From a virus: a DNA stretch of 34,194 bases. Position numbers and translations under genes: made by a program. The notes beneath the pieces were generated by a model, which did no database searches, was not told where the DNA came from, and saw only the letters and a program-made list of their open reading frames with translations. Below are positions 10,815-34,194 of this stretch, one piece after another (within the stretch, counting starts at the first letter, position 1; each line of letters starts with the position of its first letter). Location: positions 1-34,194 of IMG/VR virus record IMGVR_UViG_3300046010_010941; one strand, 5' to 3'.

Positions 10815-11869
10815 ACTGTATCGTCCAATGCTTCGACGTATAATTCTTTAAAAATATGTTTGAGTTTGTCTTTGTCTAGGTTTGTTGTAAGATTATCCAC
10901 ATACCGATTAAGTATTGATGTGGTATCTTCAGCCTGATCGACATTTACCTCATCCAAGTCTTCAATATCAGTAAAATCTTCCGTAATAGTTACATCGATA
11001 GGATTTACTTGGTAAAGTTTGTTCACCAACATATCAAAAAGATATGGATTCGTTTTGTTGACGACTACGATTTTTACATAAGTTGCACTATACGGAGATA
11101 AATTCATTTCTTGAATGGTTTTCATATCATCTTTTTTGTCATCATAAAAGATTTTATGAAACATTTCATAAGGATTTTTTATGAATTCAATTTCACTCGT
11201 TTTTAAATCGAAGATATGAAACCCCCTAGGATCATCATAGTCTTGCCAAGTCAACTCATACGGATTACCAAGATAATGTATATTCTTGTATGATGATTTG
11301 TGATGATAGTGCCCAGAAAAAACTGTATCAAATTTATCAAAAACCCTTGGCTCAAGCCCCTCATTTGAAGGTGCACCTCTGTACATTTGAAATCCCTGTA
11401 TTTCAAAGTGTCCCATACAGATAGTGCTTTCTGTATCTTTTAGTTCTTTCATCGATGCTTCATAATTTTCTGAACAGATCCAGGGCATCATGCAAATCTT
11501 TACACCAGCAACTTCTATTGTTTTTGGATCGTTGATGACCGTGATATTATCATAGTCTTGCAGCATCAGTTCAGGAGAGTTAACTTCATTTGTATTCTTG
11601 TAATACGTGTCGTGGTTTCCAACCAGCATATACACTTGAATGTTTCTTACTTTCAGTCTGTCGAAGAACATGCTCTTTGCTCGATGCAAAGAATAAAAGT
11701 TAACATATTTCCTACGATCAAAAGTGTCACCCAAAATCAGAACTGTATCGATATTACGATCATCTAGTTCTAGAAAAAACAGATTATAGAATTTTTCATA
11801 GAAGTCCAAGAAATGATTCGAATCATTTCTTGCTCCAAAATGTTGATCTGTGATCAGTGCTACTTTCAT
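10811..11869 (-). CDS. gp47: Recombination endonuclease subunit gp47 (Mre11/SbcD-like)
   Basis: The 352-residue protein starts MKVALITDQHFGARND, then shows LILGDTFDRR (about 44-53), a GNHDTYY motif near 104-110 and GHYHHKSS near 197-204, the metal-binding set of Mre11-type nucleases. T4 gp47 has 339 residues. It works with gp46 at DNA ends. The ATG at 11869 overlaps the stop of the nucleotidyltransferase gene by four bases. Confidence 0.97.
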   Translation of the reverse strand: MKVALITDQHFGARNDSNHFLDFYEKFYNLFFLELDDRNIDTVLILGDTFDRRKYVNFYSLHRAKSMFFDRLKVRNIQVYMLVGNHDTYYKNTNEVNSPELMLQDYDNITVINDPKTIEVAGVKICMMPWICSENYEASMKELKDTESTICMGHFEIQGFQMYRGAPSNEGLEPRVFDKFDTVFSGHYHHKSSYKNIHYLGNPYELTWQDYDDPRGFHIFDLKTSEIEFIKNPYEMFHKIFYDDKKDDMKTIQEMNLSPYSATYVKIVVVNKTNPYLFDMLVNKLYQVNPIDVTITEDFTDIEDLDEVNVDQAEDTTSILNRYVDNLTTNLDKDKLKHIFKELYVEALDDTV

Positions 11870-12291
11870 TGTGCCTGTTGATATAAGTTTGCGATTCTCG
11901 TTCGCAGTTCCGTTGAACTAAAACTATGCTTCCGAGAGTTATAGTAGATGGGTATTGAAAGACTCTTGCCCGTAAAGTCTTTGTCTTTATATTCTTCACC
12001 AATGATTCTAACATCAATGTTATGAGAAGTCAATATGTCAAGAAGGTCTTTTTCAGTGGAATATGGTATAATTTGATCGACGTATTTACAAGCTTCGAGT
12101 TGTAGGTATCTTTCCAAAATGGTCTGAACAGGTTTGTTCTTTTGTGGGCGATCAATTGTCGGATCGGTTTGCAGCCCGACAATCAACAAATCACATTGCG
12201 TTTTTGCCTCTTTCAACATCATTACATGCCCAGCATGGAATAAATCAAAACATGAACATGTGAATCCTATTTTTTTGTCATAACTAAACAT
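11866..12291 (-). CDS. TagD-like cytidylyltransferase (HxGH nucleotidyltransferase)
   Basis: The 141-residue single-domain protein has the nucleotide-binding motif CFDLFHAGH (14-22; H-x-G-H), a DRPQKNKP loop and the C-terminal FSSTELRTRI helix start. This is the layout of glycerol-3-phosphate cytidylyltransferases and related transferases. It would transfer a nucleotide from CTP or ATP to a small phosphorylated alcohol or sugar; the substrate cannot be read. A similar gene between 55 and 47 occurs in marine T4-like phages. GGAG lies 8 bases before the ATG at 12291, just after the stop of gene 55. Confidence 0.85.
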   Translation of the reverse strand: MFSYDKKIGFTCSCFDLFHAGHVMMLKEAKTQCDLLIVGLQTDPTIDRPQKNKPVQTILERYLQLEACKYVDQIIPYSTEKDLLDILTSHNIDVRIIGEEYKDKDFTGKSLSIPIYYNSRKHSFSSTELRTRIANLYQQAQ

Positions 12292-29759: not shown

Positions 29760-30614
29760 CTATTTATCAAAACCCATTTCTTTTCTTATTTTGGTAGCAG
29801 AAATCGTGTGAACATTATCGTCAAAAACTTCTTGATCTATTTTGTAACCCACATCTCGCCCATAGGTAATATTTACGATGTTGGGTACCACTTGTATTTC
29901 GTATTGCCCTTGGTACAGAGCGTCTAAATCTCTACGAATATAATTTTCAACCTGTTCGATAGCAAAAGGATTGCTGCCTTGCCAGCCTTGACAGTCACGA
30001 ATTTGTATGACAACTTGCCCAGTTTTCTTGATAGCTCTTTCAAATAATGCCCTGTGCCCTTGATGCCATGGCTGCCACCTACCTAGCATTTGAACAGTTT
30101 CTTTTTTCCAATCGAAAACAGGTCTACGCTGATTTGCTAAAATTTTATCTCCTACAAATGGTATCCATTTTTCTGCATTCTGTTCCGTAATACGGAAGTC
30201 GTAAATATCTGGAGAAATGAAAGCTTTATTGGTGTCTTCATACCTACCTGCATCAATTGTGTCCATCCAGATTGTCCAGTCAGCCTTAAAGTTGTGACGC
30301 ATTTCTGGAAGAGGAGCCACAAAATCACAAATGACAAAATCCGCTTGGCACTTCATTGCAAACTCCGCCATTCTTAAACTTTGTCTAATTCTTCCTTCTC
30401 GACTGAAATCCCAATCATTATATTTTTTTCTTACTTCATCGGCATTAAACCATTGAACTGTAAACTTATAGGTTTTTGGAGCACTTTCTAACGAAGGCAT
30501 TCTTTCAATGGGCATATTGTGTAGCCCGCCGTTTTTTTCCAAATAAATTTTTAGTTTTTCTGCAAAAAAAGTTTTACCTGCTCCAGGCAGGCCCATAATC
30601 AATATCTTCTTCAT
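29760..30614 (-). CDS. APS kinase-like and nucleotidyltransferase fusion protein
   Basis: Two domains are visible in 284 residues. The N-terminal one (about 1-165) is like adenylylsulfate kinase CysC: P-loop GLPGAGKT (8-15), NADEVRKKYNDWDFSREGRI near 57-76 and an APLPEMR loop. The C-terminal one (about 175-284) is a cytidylyltransferase-type domain with GRWQPWHQGH (H-x-G-H) and ISATKIRKEM. Marine T4-like phages carry such a gene near gene 13. The joint product may activate a phosphorylated small molecule. The ATG lies 41 bases inside the end of the epimerase gene; the stop TAG is part of the late promoter GATAAATA. Confidence 0.78.
   Translation of the reverse strand: MKKILIMGLPGAGKTFFAEKLKIYLEKNGGLHNMPIERMPSLESAPKTYKFTVQWFNADEVRKKYNDWDFSREGRIRQSLRMAEFAMKCQADFVICDFVAPLPEMRHNFKADWTIWMDTIDAGRYEDTNKAFISPDIYDFRITEQNAEKWIPFVGDKILANQRRPVFDWKKETVQMLGRWQPWHQGHRALFERAIKKTGQVVIQIRDCQGWQGSNPFAIEQVENYIRRDLDALYQGQYEIQVVPNIVNITYGRDVGYKIDQEVFDDNVHTISATKIRKEMGFDK
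29761..29768 (-). promoter_or_regulatory. Late promoter of the neck gene cluster
   Basis: GATAAATA on the minus strand, 31 bases before gene 13. It overlaps the last codons and stop of the upstream fusion gene (GAT AAA TAG), so this is both coding and promoter sequence. Confidence 0.7.
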
Positions 30615-31401
30615 AAAGCCCCCATAATTTTAATGTAGAATTAGTTTTTTTCATATCAGCACAGGTGTATTCTTGATACGAGTTCACTAATTGTTCTGGC
30701 ATTTTAATTGTTTTGAACTGACAAGGATATAAAGAGTTCACTTCTCTTGCTACTTGCAAAAAAGATTTAGCTTTACCAGTACCAAAATTCCAAATACCAC
30801 TTTCTTTTATTTGTAAAAATTTTAAATGTAAATCTATGATTTGATCAACGTAAATAAAATCTCTTTTATAGTTCTCACTTTTTTTGAACAATGTTATGTA
30901 ATTTGTTTCTCTCGCTTCTTTGAGAAATTTGAAGTAAGGGCTAGATTGGTTTAACTTATGATCTTCTCCAAATTCTGCCCATACATTAAAATATCTAAAA
31001 CCTTGTATTGTAATTCCTACTTTTTGTTGTATAGCTTTATTTGCTTGTCTTTCAAATAGGTATTTAGACCATGCGTAAGGAGTTCTAGGGTCAACAGAAG
31101 AATTTTCATTAAATTCTTTGTTCAAGCCATACACTGAAGCTGAGGATGCATATTGTAAATCTATTTTATTTTCGATACACAAATTGAGCAGTTCGACCGA
31201 AAAGTCATAGTTCTGTGTCAGAACTTTTTCAACATCTTTTTCGGTTGTTGATGAGATAGCACCTAGGTGCATGACGGTTTTTACACCGTCTAGATTTAAT
31301 TTATCACCCCATTCAAAACAACGTATTCGATAATTTAATTGAATTAGTCTATGAACTAAAAAACTACCAATGAATCCTTTGTACCCAGTAACAAGAATCA
31401 T
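30574..31401 (-). CDS. hldD: HldD-like ADP-heptose 6-epimerase (NAD-dependent epimerase)
   Basis: The 275-residue short-chain epimerase starts with the NAD loop TGYKGFIGS (5-13). Resemblance to HldD (RfaD) is strong: HLGAISSTTEKD near 45-56, a YASSASVYG strand, the catalytic YAWSK (Y-x3-K), GFRYFNVW, the KSENYKRDFIYVDQ block and WNFGTGKAKSF, ending in NSYQEYTCADM. HldD converts ADP-D-glycero- to ADP-L-glycero-manno-heptose. It is somewhat shorter than cellular HldD (about 310). The start overlaps the cupin gene by four bases and its end overlaps the fusion gene by 41. Confidence 0.82.
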   Translation of the reverse strand: MILVTGYKGFIGSFLVHRLIQLNYRIRCFEWGDKLNLDGVKTVMHLGAISSTTEKDVEKVLTQNYDFSVELLNLCIENKIDLQYASSASVYGLNKEFNENSSVDPRTPYAWSKYLFERQANKAIQQKVGITIQGFRYFNVWAEFGEDHKLNQSSPYFKFLKEARETNYITLFKKSENYKRDFIYVDQIIDLHLKFLQIKESGIWNFGTGKAKSFLQVAREVNSLYPCQFKTIKMPEQLVNSYQEYTCADMKKTNSTLKLWGLYEEDIDYGPAWSR

Positions 31402-31745
31402 TTCTGACTATCTCCTGGGAGAATTCTATAGTTATCTTGATAATTGTCTTTGGTACTTACTTCTATAATTGTACCTTCTTCTACACAAATCAGTTGATGG
31501 GGTTCCAAAATTTTATTTCGCCAAGTATCTCCGACATTTAAAATTTGTTCACTTATTTCGGCATTCTCAGTATCAATTGTTTTTAAAACAAATTTACCTT
31601 CAAGTACGTACCACGTTTCATCTTTCTCTGCATGAAAGTGCATACTGAAAGCTCCACCTTTATTAAATTTCAAAAACTTTCCACAATATTTTTCTGTGTC
31701 TGCCCAGATGAGTTCTCGCCCCCATCCTTTTTCAATTTTTAGCAT
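31398..31745 (-). CDS. Cupin protein, phosphomannose isomerase type II-like
   Basis: The 115-residue protein is a single cupin barrel. It opens with KGWGRELIWADTEKYCGKFL (6-25), the conserved WG-type opening of type II phosphomannose isomerase cupins. Then comes the metal motif H-x-H-x4-E-x6-G (HFHAEKDETWYVLEG, about 36-50) and a second motif PHQL near 82. It could isomerise or epimerise a sugar phosphate, or act as a lectin-like partner. An AGGAG site is 7 bases before the ATG, and it overlaps both neighbours, which places it in the sugar operon. Confidence 0.8.
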   Translation of the reverse strand: MLKIEKGWGRELIWADTEKYCGKFLKFNKGGAFSMHFHAEKDETWYVLEGKFVLKTIDTENAEISEQILNVGDTWRNKILEPHQLICVEEGTIIEVSTKDNYQDNYRILPGDSQK

Positions 31746-32527
31746 AATATTTCTCCTAAATCTGGAGAGTAAACTCCAACATGTTGAATAGTAATTGACG
31801 AGGCCTTGATTGCAAATTCAATTGCAATATCTATGTCTTTTGAAAGTAGATGCGCAAAAGAAAAAGCGGAGAGGAATGTGTCTCCTGCTCCGCAAACATC
31901 AAACGCTTTAATTTTTGGTACTGAAAACTTTTTATTTTTATATTGTACGTGTGAAGAACCAAAAGTTACTATGACATCCTGCCCATCTGATACACGATTC
32001 GAATACTCAAATTCATTTATCTTAATAAAACAATTTTTAAACTTTTGTAGGTCTCTTTTTTTGGTGTCGATATAAATGGGTATTTTTGGTGAATATCTTT
32101 GTATAATTTCTCCAATCAACTCATATGAAACAAAGCCCTTTTCGTAATCGGAGATAACGATACCATCAATATCTTTTGGTAAATCTATGTTAGTTTTAAG
32201 AGGTTCCGAAACAATGTCTTCATCTATACGAAGCAGGTGTTGATTTGATTTTTCATCGATGTAACGTATCTTTTTTGATTCTTTGCTGAGATATGAAATG
32301 ACCTCCACACCCAAAGCTTCAAGATTATTTTTGACATTACTTGCCATTCCATTTTTTTGTTCTTTTCTTTTGAACTTAAAAATTGGAACAGGGGCTTCTG
32401 GGCTTAATTTATCACATGAGCCATAATGATATTCGTCAACACAACTGTCTCCTATTAATAAAATCTTCAAGGATTTTTGTCGTTGAGTAGCGAGGGTCTC
32501 TATCAAAGAATACAAATTGTTTAGCAT
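31739..32527 (-). CDS. hldE: HldE-type heptose 7-phosphate kinase domain (PfkB/ribokinase family)
   Basis: From the ATG at 32527 the protein has 262 residues. LIGDSCVDEYHYG (about 24-36) and KLSPEAPVPIFKF (about 40-52) match the start of HldE domain I; further on are a shortened lid (NGMASNVKNNLEALG), VISDYEKG and the anion-hole/catalytic motif AFDVCGAGDTFLSAF (about 210-224). About 25 residues of the usual lid region are missing, but the catalytic motif is intact. It would phosphorylate heptose 7-phosphate at C1. The open frame extends to a TTG at 32569; I prefer the ATG. Its first 92 bases lie inside the nucleotidyltransferase gene in another frame. Confidence 0.78.
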   Translation of the reverse strand: MLNNLYSLIETLATQRQKSLKILLIGDSCVDEYHYGSCDKLSPEAPVPIFKFKRKEQKNGMASNVKNNLEALGVEVISYLSKESKKIRYIDEKSNQHLLRIDEDIVSEPLKTNIDLPKDIDGIVISDYEKGFVSYELIGEIIQRYSPKIPIYIDTKKRDLQKFKNCFIKINEFEYSNRVSDGQDVIVTFGSSHVQYKNKKFSVPKIKAFDVCGAGDTFLSAFSFAHLLSKDIDIAIEFAIKASSITIQHVGVYSPDLGEILC

Positions 32528-32846
32528 ATTCAAAACCAATAATTTTTTTACCTTTCCAATCGGAACCAATTACCATTATATCTGGAGAATAATCTTTAAT
32601 CAAGCTTTTTAATTCATCATCAGTATTAAAAATGGTAACTTTATCAACCCATTTAATATTTTCTAAAATACACTGGCGAGTTATTTCATCGTTAAAGGGT
32701 CTATCGATTCCTTTTTTTTCTCTAACTCGTTCATCGGAATCGATAGATACCATTAGATAAGTGCCTAATTTTTTTGCTGTTTTAAGTAAAGCCATGTGCC
32801 CAGGATGTAGCACATCAAAAGTACCATTGACAAAAATTTTAATCAT
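32436..32846 (-). CDS. HldE-type nucleotidyltransferase domain (heptose 1-phosphate adenylyltransferase-like)
   Basis: The 136-residue protein begins IFVNGTFDVLHPGHMALL (4-21) with the H-x-G-H motif, followed by VSIDSDERVREKKG (about 33-46) and DRPFN, as in HldE domain II. The closing segment has a YSTTKILEDF signature (S-T-T). It would transfer AMP to heptose 1-phosphate, though related enzymes use CTP and glycerol 3-phosphate. In bacteria this domain follows the kinase in one HldE polypeptide; here it is a separate gene before the kinase. It overlaps the methyltransferase by four bases. Confidence 0.78.
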   Translation of the reverse strand: MIKIFVNGTFDVLHPGHMALLKTAKKLGTYLMVSIDSDERVREKKGIDRPFNDEITRQCILENIKWVDKVTIFNTDDELKSLIKDYSPDIMVIGSDWKGKKIIGFEYAKQFVFFDRDPRYSTTKILEDFINRRQLC

Positions 32847-33448
32847 GATGAAAGGTAGTCTTTAAATCTTCCTGGTTTATGCACACGAATGAAAATGTTT
32901 ACAGATTCGCAAACATTAGACATAGTGTTTAGATTGATATCAAGTTGTTTACCTCCTAACATTCCTTCTTGTAGTAAATCTTTCCAATATCCTACTAAAT
33001 TATATGTAACATCATAGACTTCTAAATCAACATCGTGCATAATACCGAAAGTGCTATCACTTAACCCTCTTCTAATCGAATCAATATTGGCAGATTGATC
33101 AAACATTCGAAAAGTTTTTGGTGTCAACACTCTAACATGTGTGTAATCATCCCAGTGTAAATCGCACCTATGATGAGGTACATTAATATACCATTCTGCT
33201 TGATCACGGCTCACTCGATACATTTCTTTGATGATACTTGTAAATTTTCTTGGTGATTGCCCAAGATGTTCAAGAATGTTGTCGGCTGTAATCTTTTCAA
33301 AAAAATCATCTTCATATGGCCATGGTGTTTCTTCTAAATCTAGAACTTGATCGGGATTACATTTTGCTTCGAAGTCCACGTTCCAATGATCAAATAATTT
33401 TTTAAAGCCACAACCCATATTTAATTTTTTGTGTTCGGGAGTAATCAT
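32843..33448 (-). CDS. SAM-dependent methyltransferase-like protein
   Basis: The 201-residue protein has a class I methyltransferase layout: motif I LNMGCGFKK (9-17), an acidic motif VLDLEETPWPYEDD (about 35-48) and ITADNILEHLGQSP (about 53-66), where the NILEHL segment is the usual post-motif II. The region WYINVPHHRCDLHWDDYTHV (about 87-106) is typical of methyltransferases near glycan clusters. The target is unknown: a sugar, a lipid or the glycosyl acceptor. An AAGGAA site is 7 bases before the ATG. It overlaps the glycosyltransferase by four bases. Confidence 0.8.
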   Translation of the reverse strand: MITPEHKKLNMGCGFKKLFDHWNVDFEAKCNPDQVLDLEETPWPYEDDFFEKITADNILEHLGQSPRKFTSIIKEMYRVSRDQAEWYINVPHHRCDLHWDDYTHVRVLTPKTFRMFDQSANIDSIRRGLSDSTFGIMHDVDLEVYDVTYNLVGYWKDLLQEGMLGGKQLDINLNTMSNVCESVNIFIRVHKPGRFKDYLSS

Positions 33449-34194
33449 ATTTTTTCCTTTTCAATCAAATCAGAAATTAATTGTTCACATTTATTTAAAG
33501 AGCCTTTCCAATCGCAAGGTAAATCTTGGTGAATACACCAAGCATTTTCATACCAAATAGTTTTGCTCATATCTTCATTATGATTCCATGTAAAATATGC
33601 AGCGGCATGCATTAACACTATCGTAGTTTTACCCATGCTTGCGGCCGCATGTGATACACCTGTATCACAGGTTACTATAATATCACAGGTGTCCAATAAT
33701 GCAAGAGTATCTTCCCAAGTTTCAAAAGGTATATATTTTACTCTAGAATCCTTTTCAATTACGTCTTTTTCTAAATTGACAACTTCACCAAATTTTATTA
33801 AATGATCCACAGTTTCCTTTAATGGTAAAGTTCTCAAATTTGTTTCAACATGTGTTTTGTCTCCTTGGACGCAAAGCCCTATTCGTAGTTGTTTTTTTGG
33901 AAATTCTTCGTCGTACCTTTTTTTTATATTTAATTCACAGTTTAGATATTTGATAGGGTCAGGTTTTTCCACTGAAAGATGATAAGCTAAACTCATAATG
34001 GGAACTGCGTGAATACTTTTTGTTTCTTTCCAAGAGCTTATATCTTTAATGTTGAAAACCCTACAAAAGGTAGGAGATAGTGCTTTGCCATCATAATACA
34101 CATTTTGACATAGAGTTTTTAATAATGGTAACCATCTTGAAAAAATAATTTGGTCTCCGAACCCAGATTCTGCCAAAACTACTAGATTTTCGGC
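33445..34194 (-). CDS. GT9 heptosyltransferase-like protein, N-terminus cut by window edge
   Basis: The frame is open to the last base, so the N-terminus lies outside; 249 residues are visible. The first visible ones (VVLAESGFGDQIIFSRWLPL, without a credible start) are the E-x-G-x-GD-x-I-x-F-x-R motif of TPR/GT9-type glycosyltransferases. A later CDTGVSHAAASMGKTTIVLM (about residues 185-204) is the GT9 C-terminal motif that binds the nucleotide-sugar. GT9 enzymes include the ADP-heptose:LPS heptosyltransferases, which fits the HldE/HldD genes downstream. It may also be an unrelated surface-glycan glycosyltransferase. Confidence 0.78.
   Translation of the reverse strand, partial: AENLVVLAESGFGDQIIFSRWLPLLKTLCQNVYYDGKALSPTFCRVFNIKDISSWKETKSIHAVPIMSLAYHLSVEKPDPIKYLNCELNIKKRYDEEFPKKQLRIGLCVQGDKTHVETNLRTLPLKETVDHLIKFGEVVNLEKDVIEKDSRVKYIPFETWEDTLALLDTCDIIVTCDTGVSHAAASMGKTTIVLMHAAAYFTWNHNEDMSKTIWYENAWCIHQDLPCDWKGSLNKCEQLISDLIEKEKI

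Follow-up and report, generated by a model that had tools for sequence, protein, structure and literature searches.

A putative ADP-heptose pathway encoded by a compact gene cluster of an uncultured, marine-type T4-like phage

The right end of the IMG/VR fragment IMGVR_UViG_3300046010_010941 (34,194 bases, hereafter the window) carries six minus-strand genes (30574-34194) that overlap head to tail and encode a glycosyltransferase (GT), a methyltransferase, a nucleotidyltransferase, a kinase, a cupin and an epimerase (Table 1). This operon probably specifies a compact route by which the phage makes an ADP-activated heptose. All six open reading frames (ORFs) described in an initial annotation of the DNA are present, with overlaps of 4 bp (GT/methyltransferase), 4 bp (methyltransferase/nucleotidyltransferase), at least 35 bp (nucleotidyltransferase/kinase), 7 bp (kinase/cupin) and 4 bp (cupin/epimerase). 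The T4-like nature of the phage also holds, since terL, gp20 and families elsewhere in the window (late sigma factor, sheath, scaffold, major head protein and clamp loader) agree with it. The module is real and looks functional. It is recognizably a known one, with relatives in the families T4-GC 304, 305, 307 and 308 of cyanophages P-SSM2, S-SM2 and S-SSM7, which Sullivan et al. (2010) found to co-occur in three phages and called 'LPS genes' (LPS, lipopolysaccharide), their functioning being not known (PMC3037559).

Heptose families were the best NCBIfam profiles of three enzymes. The nucleotidyltransferase matched HldE domain II (TIGR02199, 4.4e-30, 104.4 bits), with TagD next (4.9e-24, 85 bits), and PHROG 7878 (2e-44); the margin of HldE-II over TagD is about 20 bits in the window and about 36 in the related protein of contig L142 (101 vs 64 bits). 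For the kinase, HldE domain I (TIGR02198, 8.6e-37, 126.9 bits) stood far ahead of ribokinase (44 bits), and a profile search of the PDB gave HldA as top match (4e84, 6e-29). Its GAGD catalytic motif is invariant and the SPEAPVPV block is present. The epimerase matched HldD (TIGR02197, 3.2e-61, 207.2 bits; GalE 64 bits) and, in the PDB, E. coli HldD (1eq2, 2e-39). It keeps the catalytic Tyr and Lys and the HldD-specific Lys (Y109, K113 and K149); we take K149 to be the equivalent of K178 in E. coli HldD. This diagnostic Lys was found in 18/19 phage epimerases and also in HldDs encoded beside hldE, and in 0/28 SDR proteins scoring below 110 bits at the same loci. Neither the kinase nor the epimerase had its best match in an unrelated sugar pathway. 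The closest cellular kinase (L031, Bacteroidetes, 45%) shares its locus with a nucleotidyltransferase, a GT9 resembling heptosyltransferases and an HldD whose 375 bits exceed the cut-off. The reading given in the initial annotation is partly supported. Profiles favour its kinase, nucleotidyltransferase and epimerase steps of the ADP-heptose pathway as well as its methyltransferase and cupin calls, but they do not clearly make the transferase a GT9 heptosyltransferase.

Family relationships, conserved catalytic residues, operon structure and conserved co-occurrence can be read from the sequences, and from these we infer the substrates, the order of the steps, the product and the acceptor. The kinase would add the 1-phosphate, a phosphatase would take off the 7-phosphate, the HldE-II-like enzyme would attach AMP, the HldD-like enzyme would invert C6, and the linked GT-B transferase would put the sugar onto a surface or tail molecule. 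In most relatives the phosphatase may be a mini-HAD protein (T4-GC306), while in the window phage it would be supplied by the host or encoded elsewhere. T4-GC306 is named 'phosphoheptose isomerase' in RefSeq, but it matches the EcbF-BcbF HAD phosphatase family (TIGR01689) and keeps the HAD motifs DxDGT, T, K and DD. As a mini HAD phosphatase it fits the GmhB step, and the RefSeq name looks wrong. In phage SynMITS9220M01, this HAD and an HldE-II-like domain form one fusion protein, as expected for consecutive steps.

Around 31 phage kinases, some of them on cut contigs, we counted 29 nucleotidyltransferases, 29 cupins, 24 HADs, 21 epimerases and no SIS isomerase. In the window lineage (L004, L142, L213 and L198), the nucleotidyltransferase, kinase, cupin and epimerase occur unaccompanied by the HAD, and the window module is a HAD-less variant of the known phage cluster. 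No HAD gene of this lineage was found in the window, in G000 and G001 or in the contigs of L142 and L213, all of which are fragments. In E. coli, GmhB is partly replaceable, which makes a HAD-less pathway plausible. The SIS_2 domain of GmhA was absent from 18 viral records and from the 7 complete cyanophage genomes carrying the module. The initial annotation placed gmhA and gmhB either in the host or beyond position 34194. Both are absent from the window, and neither was found in about 13 kb past its end on contig L004, which is 99.98% identical to the window across 12,453 bp, the remaining phage genome being unseen.

The acceptor of the sugar is less clear. The GT ORF is truncated by the window end and complete in L004. 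Pfam GT9 matched it with 23.4 bits, just above the Pfam cut-off and over 32 residues only, at a C-terminal GT9-like motif. In a Foldseek search, an AlphaFold2 (AF2) model of the GT (mean predicted local distance difference test, pLDDT, 83) matched XcOGT (1e-6) and WaaF (6e-6), and also WaaC, TibC and SPINDLY. Because TPR O-GlcNAc transferases are matched as well as WaaF, WaaC and TibC, LPS and a protein are equally likely acceptors, and the model makes a tail protein and the host surface about equally likely targets.

It is a real possibility that the TPR-type GT, being OGT-like or like the autotransporter heptosyltransferase TibC, puts heptose on the repeat-rich tail proteins encoded just upstream. 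Beyond the window, L004 encodes collagen-like and RCC1-repeat tail proteins, two further methyltransferases, a sulfotransferase and a second TPR transferase. Also in favour, heptose and Kdo are both missing from the published LPS of Synechococcus WH8102 and CC9311 (PMC4515613), although the module occurs in phages isolated on WH8102. Among 151 genomes of the Prochlorococcus family (Cyanobiaceae), a GmhA-like SIS (at least 42 bits) was detected in 24 and an HldE-I-like kinase (E < 1e-30) in 16, so that about 84-89% are without them. In the cyanophage relatives the pathway cannot serve just to supplement a heptose core, and a simple completion of host LPS is doubtful. However, the 411-aa GT is absent from L142 and L213, which bear the module and where orthologues of the methyltransferase adjoin it. 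In addition, the TM-scores are low (0.3-0.4), TibC takes ADP-D,D-heptose and would make the epimerase needless, and the host of the window phage cannot be inferred, as its terL and gp20 (portal) are merely 52-55% identical to those of cyanophages. The second TPR-GT (346 aa) is ruled out as a specific heptosyltransferase, since it also occurs without the module. A sulfotransferase-like N-terminus fused to a TPR glycosyltransferase was observed in L200 (2607-4382), directly after RCC1-repeat tail genes, and in L180 (3005-4879), which suggests that sulfation and glycosylation act on one acceptor.

The module could just as well remodel host LPS or capsule, for instance as a block to superinfection, as the initial annotation proposed. 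WaaF and WaaC are among the matches of the GT-B model, the relative L031 from a cellular genome is an operon for LPS heptose, and glycosyltransferases in the host-recognition regions of pelagimyophages have been read as modifiers of the host surface (PMC7029224). Nevertheless, the LPS of the hosts of cyanophage relatives is heptose-free where analysed, and no lipid-acceptor transferase was identified.

Somewhat more tentatively, the cupin may fill the slot of GmhA as sedoheptulose-7-phosphate isomerase, freeing the pathway from the host enzyme. It adjoins the kinase in 29/31 phage loci, where GmhA-type SIS proteins are found in 0/31, and its HxHxxKxE...H site (H36, H38, K41, E43 and H83) is invariant across 30 relatives. 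In D-lyxose isomerase, three His and one Glu serve as ligands, and a Lys located two positions ahead of this Glu is essential (PMC8378251); the cupin shares this ligand set and has a Lys at the matching position. Weak matches to Lyx_isomer (26/29 members) and to GMP_PMI, the type II phosphomannose isomerase (PMI) family (14/29), were obtained, and the top structural hits of the AF2 model (pLDDT 94.7) include D-lyxose isomerase (2e-7). The scarcity of GmhA-like and HldE-I-like enzymes in the sampled Cyanobiaceae and the clustering of cupin, HAD, kinase and nucleotidyltransferase in marine cellular genomes are also in favour of this role. On the other hand, each of the family signals is weak, with equal or higher scores for WbuC, quercetinase and oxalate decarboxylase. 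The window cupin passes Cupin_2, but with Lyx_isomer (13 bits) and MannoseP_isomer (14 bits) it stays under the curated cut-offs. The fold search was not decisive, with quercetinase and oxalate decarboxylase also among the best structural matches, and although the profile-profile score with type II PMI (33.7) exceeded 40 column shuffles (at most 16.9), the common fold by itself could explain it. Furthermore, some genomes with the cupin cluster have a SIS gene elsewhere, L070 has cupin and SIS adjacent, and in SynMITS9220M01 a cupin lies next to a GHMP kinase while a SIS protein is present too. Mutual exclusion of cupin and SIS was not established in cellular genomes. The 'cysteine dioxygenase' label of T4-GC307 has little support.

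Several points weigh against the assignment to ADP-heptose. The scores fall below the equivalog cut-offs for the nucleotidyltransferase (181.5), the kinase (345) and the epimerase (274.6), the last of which we therefore call HldD-like. The kinase is compact (about 243 aa vs 315 in the profile), and like the epimerase it falls short of characterised enzymes in length. HldE-II is a close relative of TagD-type cytidylyltransferases, and the best PDB match of the nucleotidyltransferase is TagD (1coz); nucleotide preference is for this reason the least certain call. Neither isomerase nor phosphatase is certain in the window phage. The low scores and the likeness to TagD, as well as transketolase-like and alcohol dehydrogenase genes added in the relatives S-SM2 and P-TIM68, would also agree with a different substrate sugar, for example an octose, another heptose or a derivative of glycerol phosphate; we consider this unlikely, as heptose families come out ahead for three adjacent enzymes and the epimerase retains the HldD lysine. 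Even less probable is a fully self-contained ADP-heptose pathway, with the mini-cupin for GmhA and the mini-HAD for GmhB, carried into hosts with heptose-free surfaces and glycosylating the phage's own tail proteins. Alcohol dehydrogenase and thiamine pyrophosphate (TPP)-dependent enzyme genes were also seen beside the compact kinase in some phages and bacteria (L024 3964-6186, L078 5692-7991 and L058 2030-5074), perhaps for making an unusual ketose precursor.

Two other genes of the window were considered. The 284-aa neighbour downstream of the epimerase was rejected as a pathway member: IMG/VR contains at least 599 relatives of it, and a nucleotidyltransferase, kinase and cupin are nearby in only 4 of the best 80. 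With 5 records among cultured phages, it is a marker of a large uncultured T4-like group. A second HldE-II/TagD-like nucleotidyltransferase (11866-12291, minus strand) adjoins the late sigma factor and SbcD-like (gp47) genes and shares about 60% identity with Vibrio and Acinetobacter phage proteins.

Table 1. Genes of the putative ADP-heptose module, its neighbour and the apparently misnamed T4-GC306 genes
Feature	Position	Strand	Remarks
TPR + GT-B glycosyltransferase, candidate transfer enzyme	33445..34194	-	C-terminal 249 aa of a 411-aa protein; full in L004 7791-9026
Class I-type methyltransferase, 201 aa	32843..33448	-	PHROG 6636, 8e-9
HldE domain II-like nucleotidyltransferase (T4-GC304), proposed heptose-1-phosphate adenylyltransferase	32436..32846	-	TIGR02199, PHROG 7878
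Compact PfkB/HldE domain I-like kinase (T4-GC305), proposed heptose-7-phosphate kinase	31739..32470	-	TIGR02198; start TTG 32470 or upstream in the same frame
Single-domain cupin (T4-GC307), candidate sedoheptulose-7-phosphate isomerase	31398..31745	-	Metal site, model, family matches, linkage to kinase
HldD-like ADP-heptose 6-epimerase (T4-GC308), 275 aa, N-terminal cofactor region shortened	30574..31401	-	TIGR02197, PDB 1eq2
P-loop (APS-kinase-like) + NMNAT-like neighbour	29760..30614	-	APS_kinase above cut-off; 41-bp overlap with epimerase; probably outside the pathway
T4-GC306, apparently misnamed in RefSeq	L023 9719-10063; L025 10658-10993; L022 7710-8033		

The correction of T4-GC306 to a phosphatase, the proposal of a cupin isomerase and the paradox of the hosts are new in this work. 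Since 2010, T4-GC 304, 305, 307 and 308 have been regarded as possibly functional or as mere stuffer DNA (PMC3037559). Their assignment to one heptose pathway, the correction of T4-GC306 and a candidate for the isomerase open this question to tests on five proteins, all small and soluble. A cupin that works as proposed would provide a new way to a sugar phosphate hitherto tied to GmhA, and if the sugar ends on virions, this would be a case of phage self-glycosylation.

Among known systems, the T4-GC 304-308 cluster (P-SSM2, S-SSM7, S-CAM1 and S-T4) has homologous nucleotidyltransferase, kinase, cupin and epimerase genes, with about 30-50% identity, and in S-SSM7 it lies directly before gp13, like the window module. 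The window differs in that no HAD phosphatase was seen, the epimerase is co-directional, the neighbouring transferases are others and the lineage is uncultured. The E. coli-type HldE/HldD system provides the best profile families for all three enzymes, and its GAGD motif and HldD Y/K/K residues are kept in the window proteins, but HldE is split here into two genes in reversed order, with a shorter kinase and epimerase and sub-equivalog scores. SynMITS9220M01 (PMC7378029) is a cyanophage with heptose genes, including the mini-HAD and HldE-II-like domain in one protein; however, its kinase is of the GHMP type (HddA-like), its isomerase is a GmhA-like SIS and its epimerase is best matched as GalE. 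There, two parallel sets were observed (L236 617-2001 and 7230-9429), one of GHMP kinase and cupin and the other of GHMP kinase, SIS and the HAD-nucleotidyltransferase fusion. The cupin D-lyxose/D-mannose isomerase and type II PMI share the cupin fold, the 3His-1Glu ligands and the Lys with the window cupin, whereas the latter is a single domain of 115 aa with a weak sequence signal and a putative substrate. Finally, XcOGT (a TPR O-GlcNAc transferase), WaaF, WaaC and TibC have in common with the window GT the GT-B fold, the TPR domain and the C-terminal GT9-like motif, although the identity is only about 10%.

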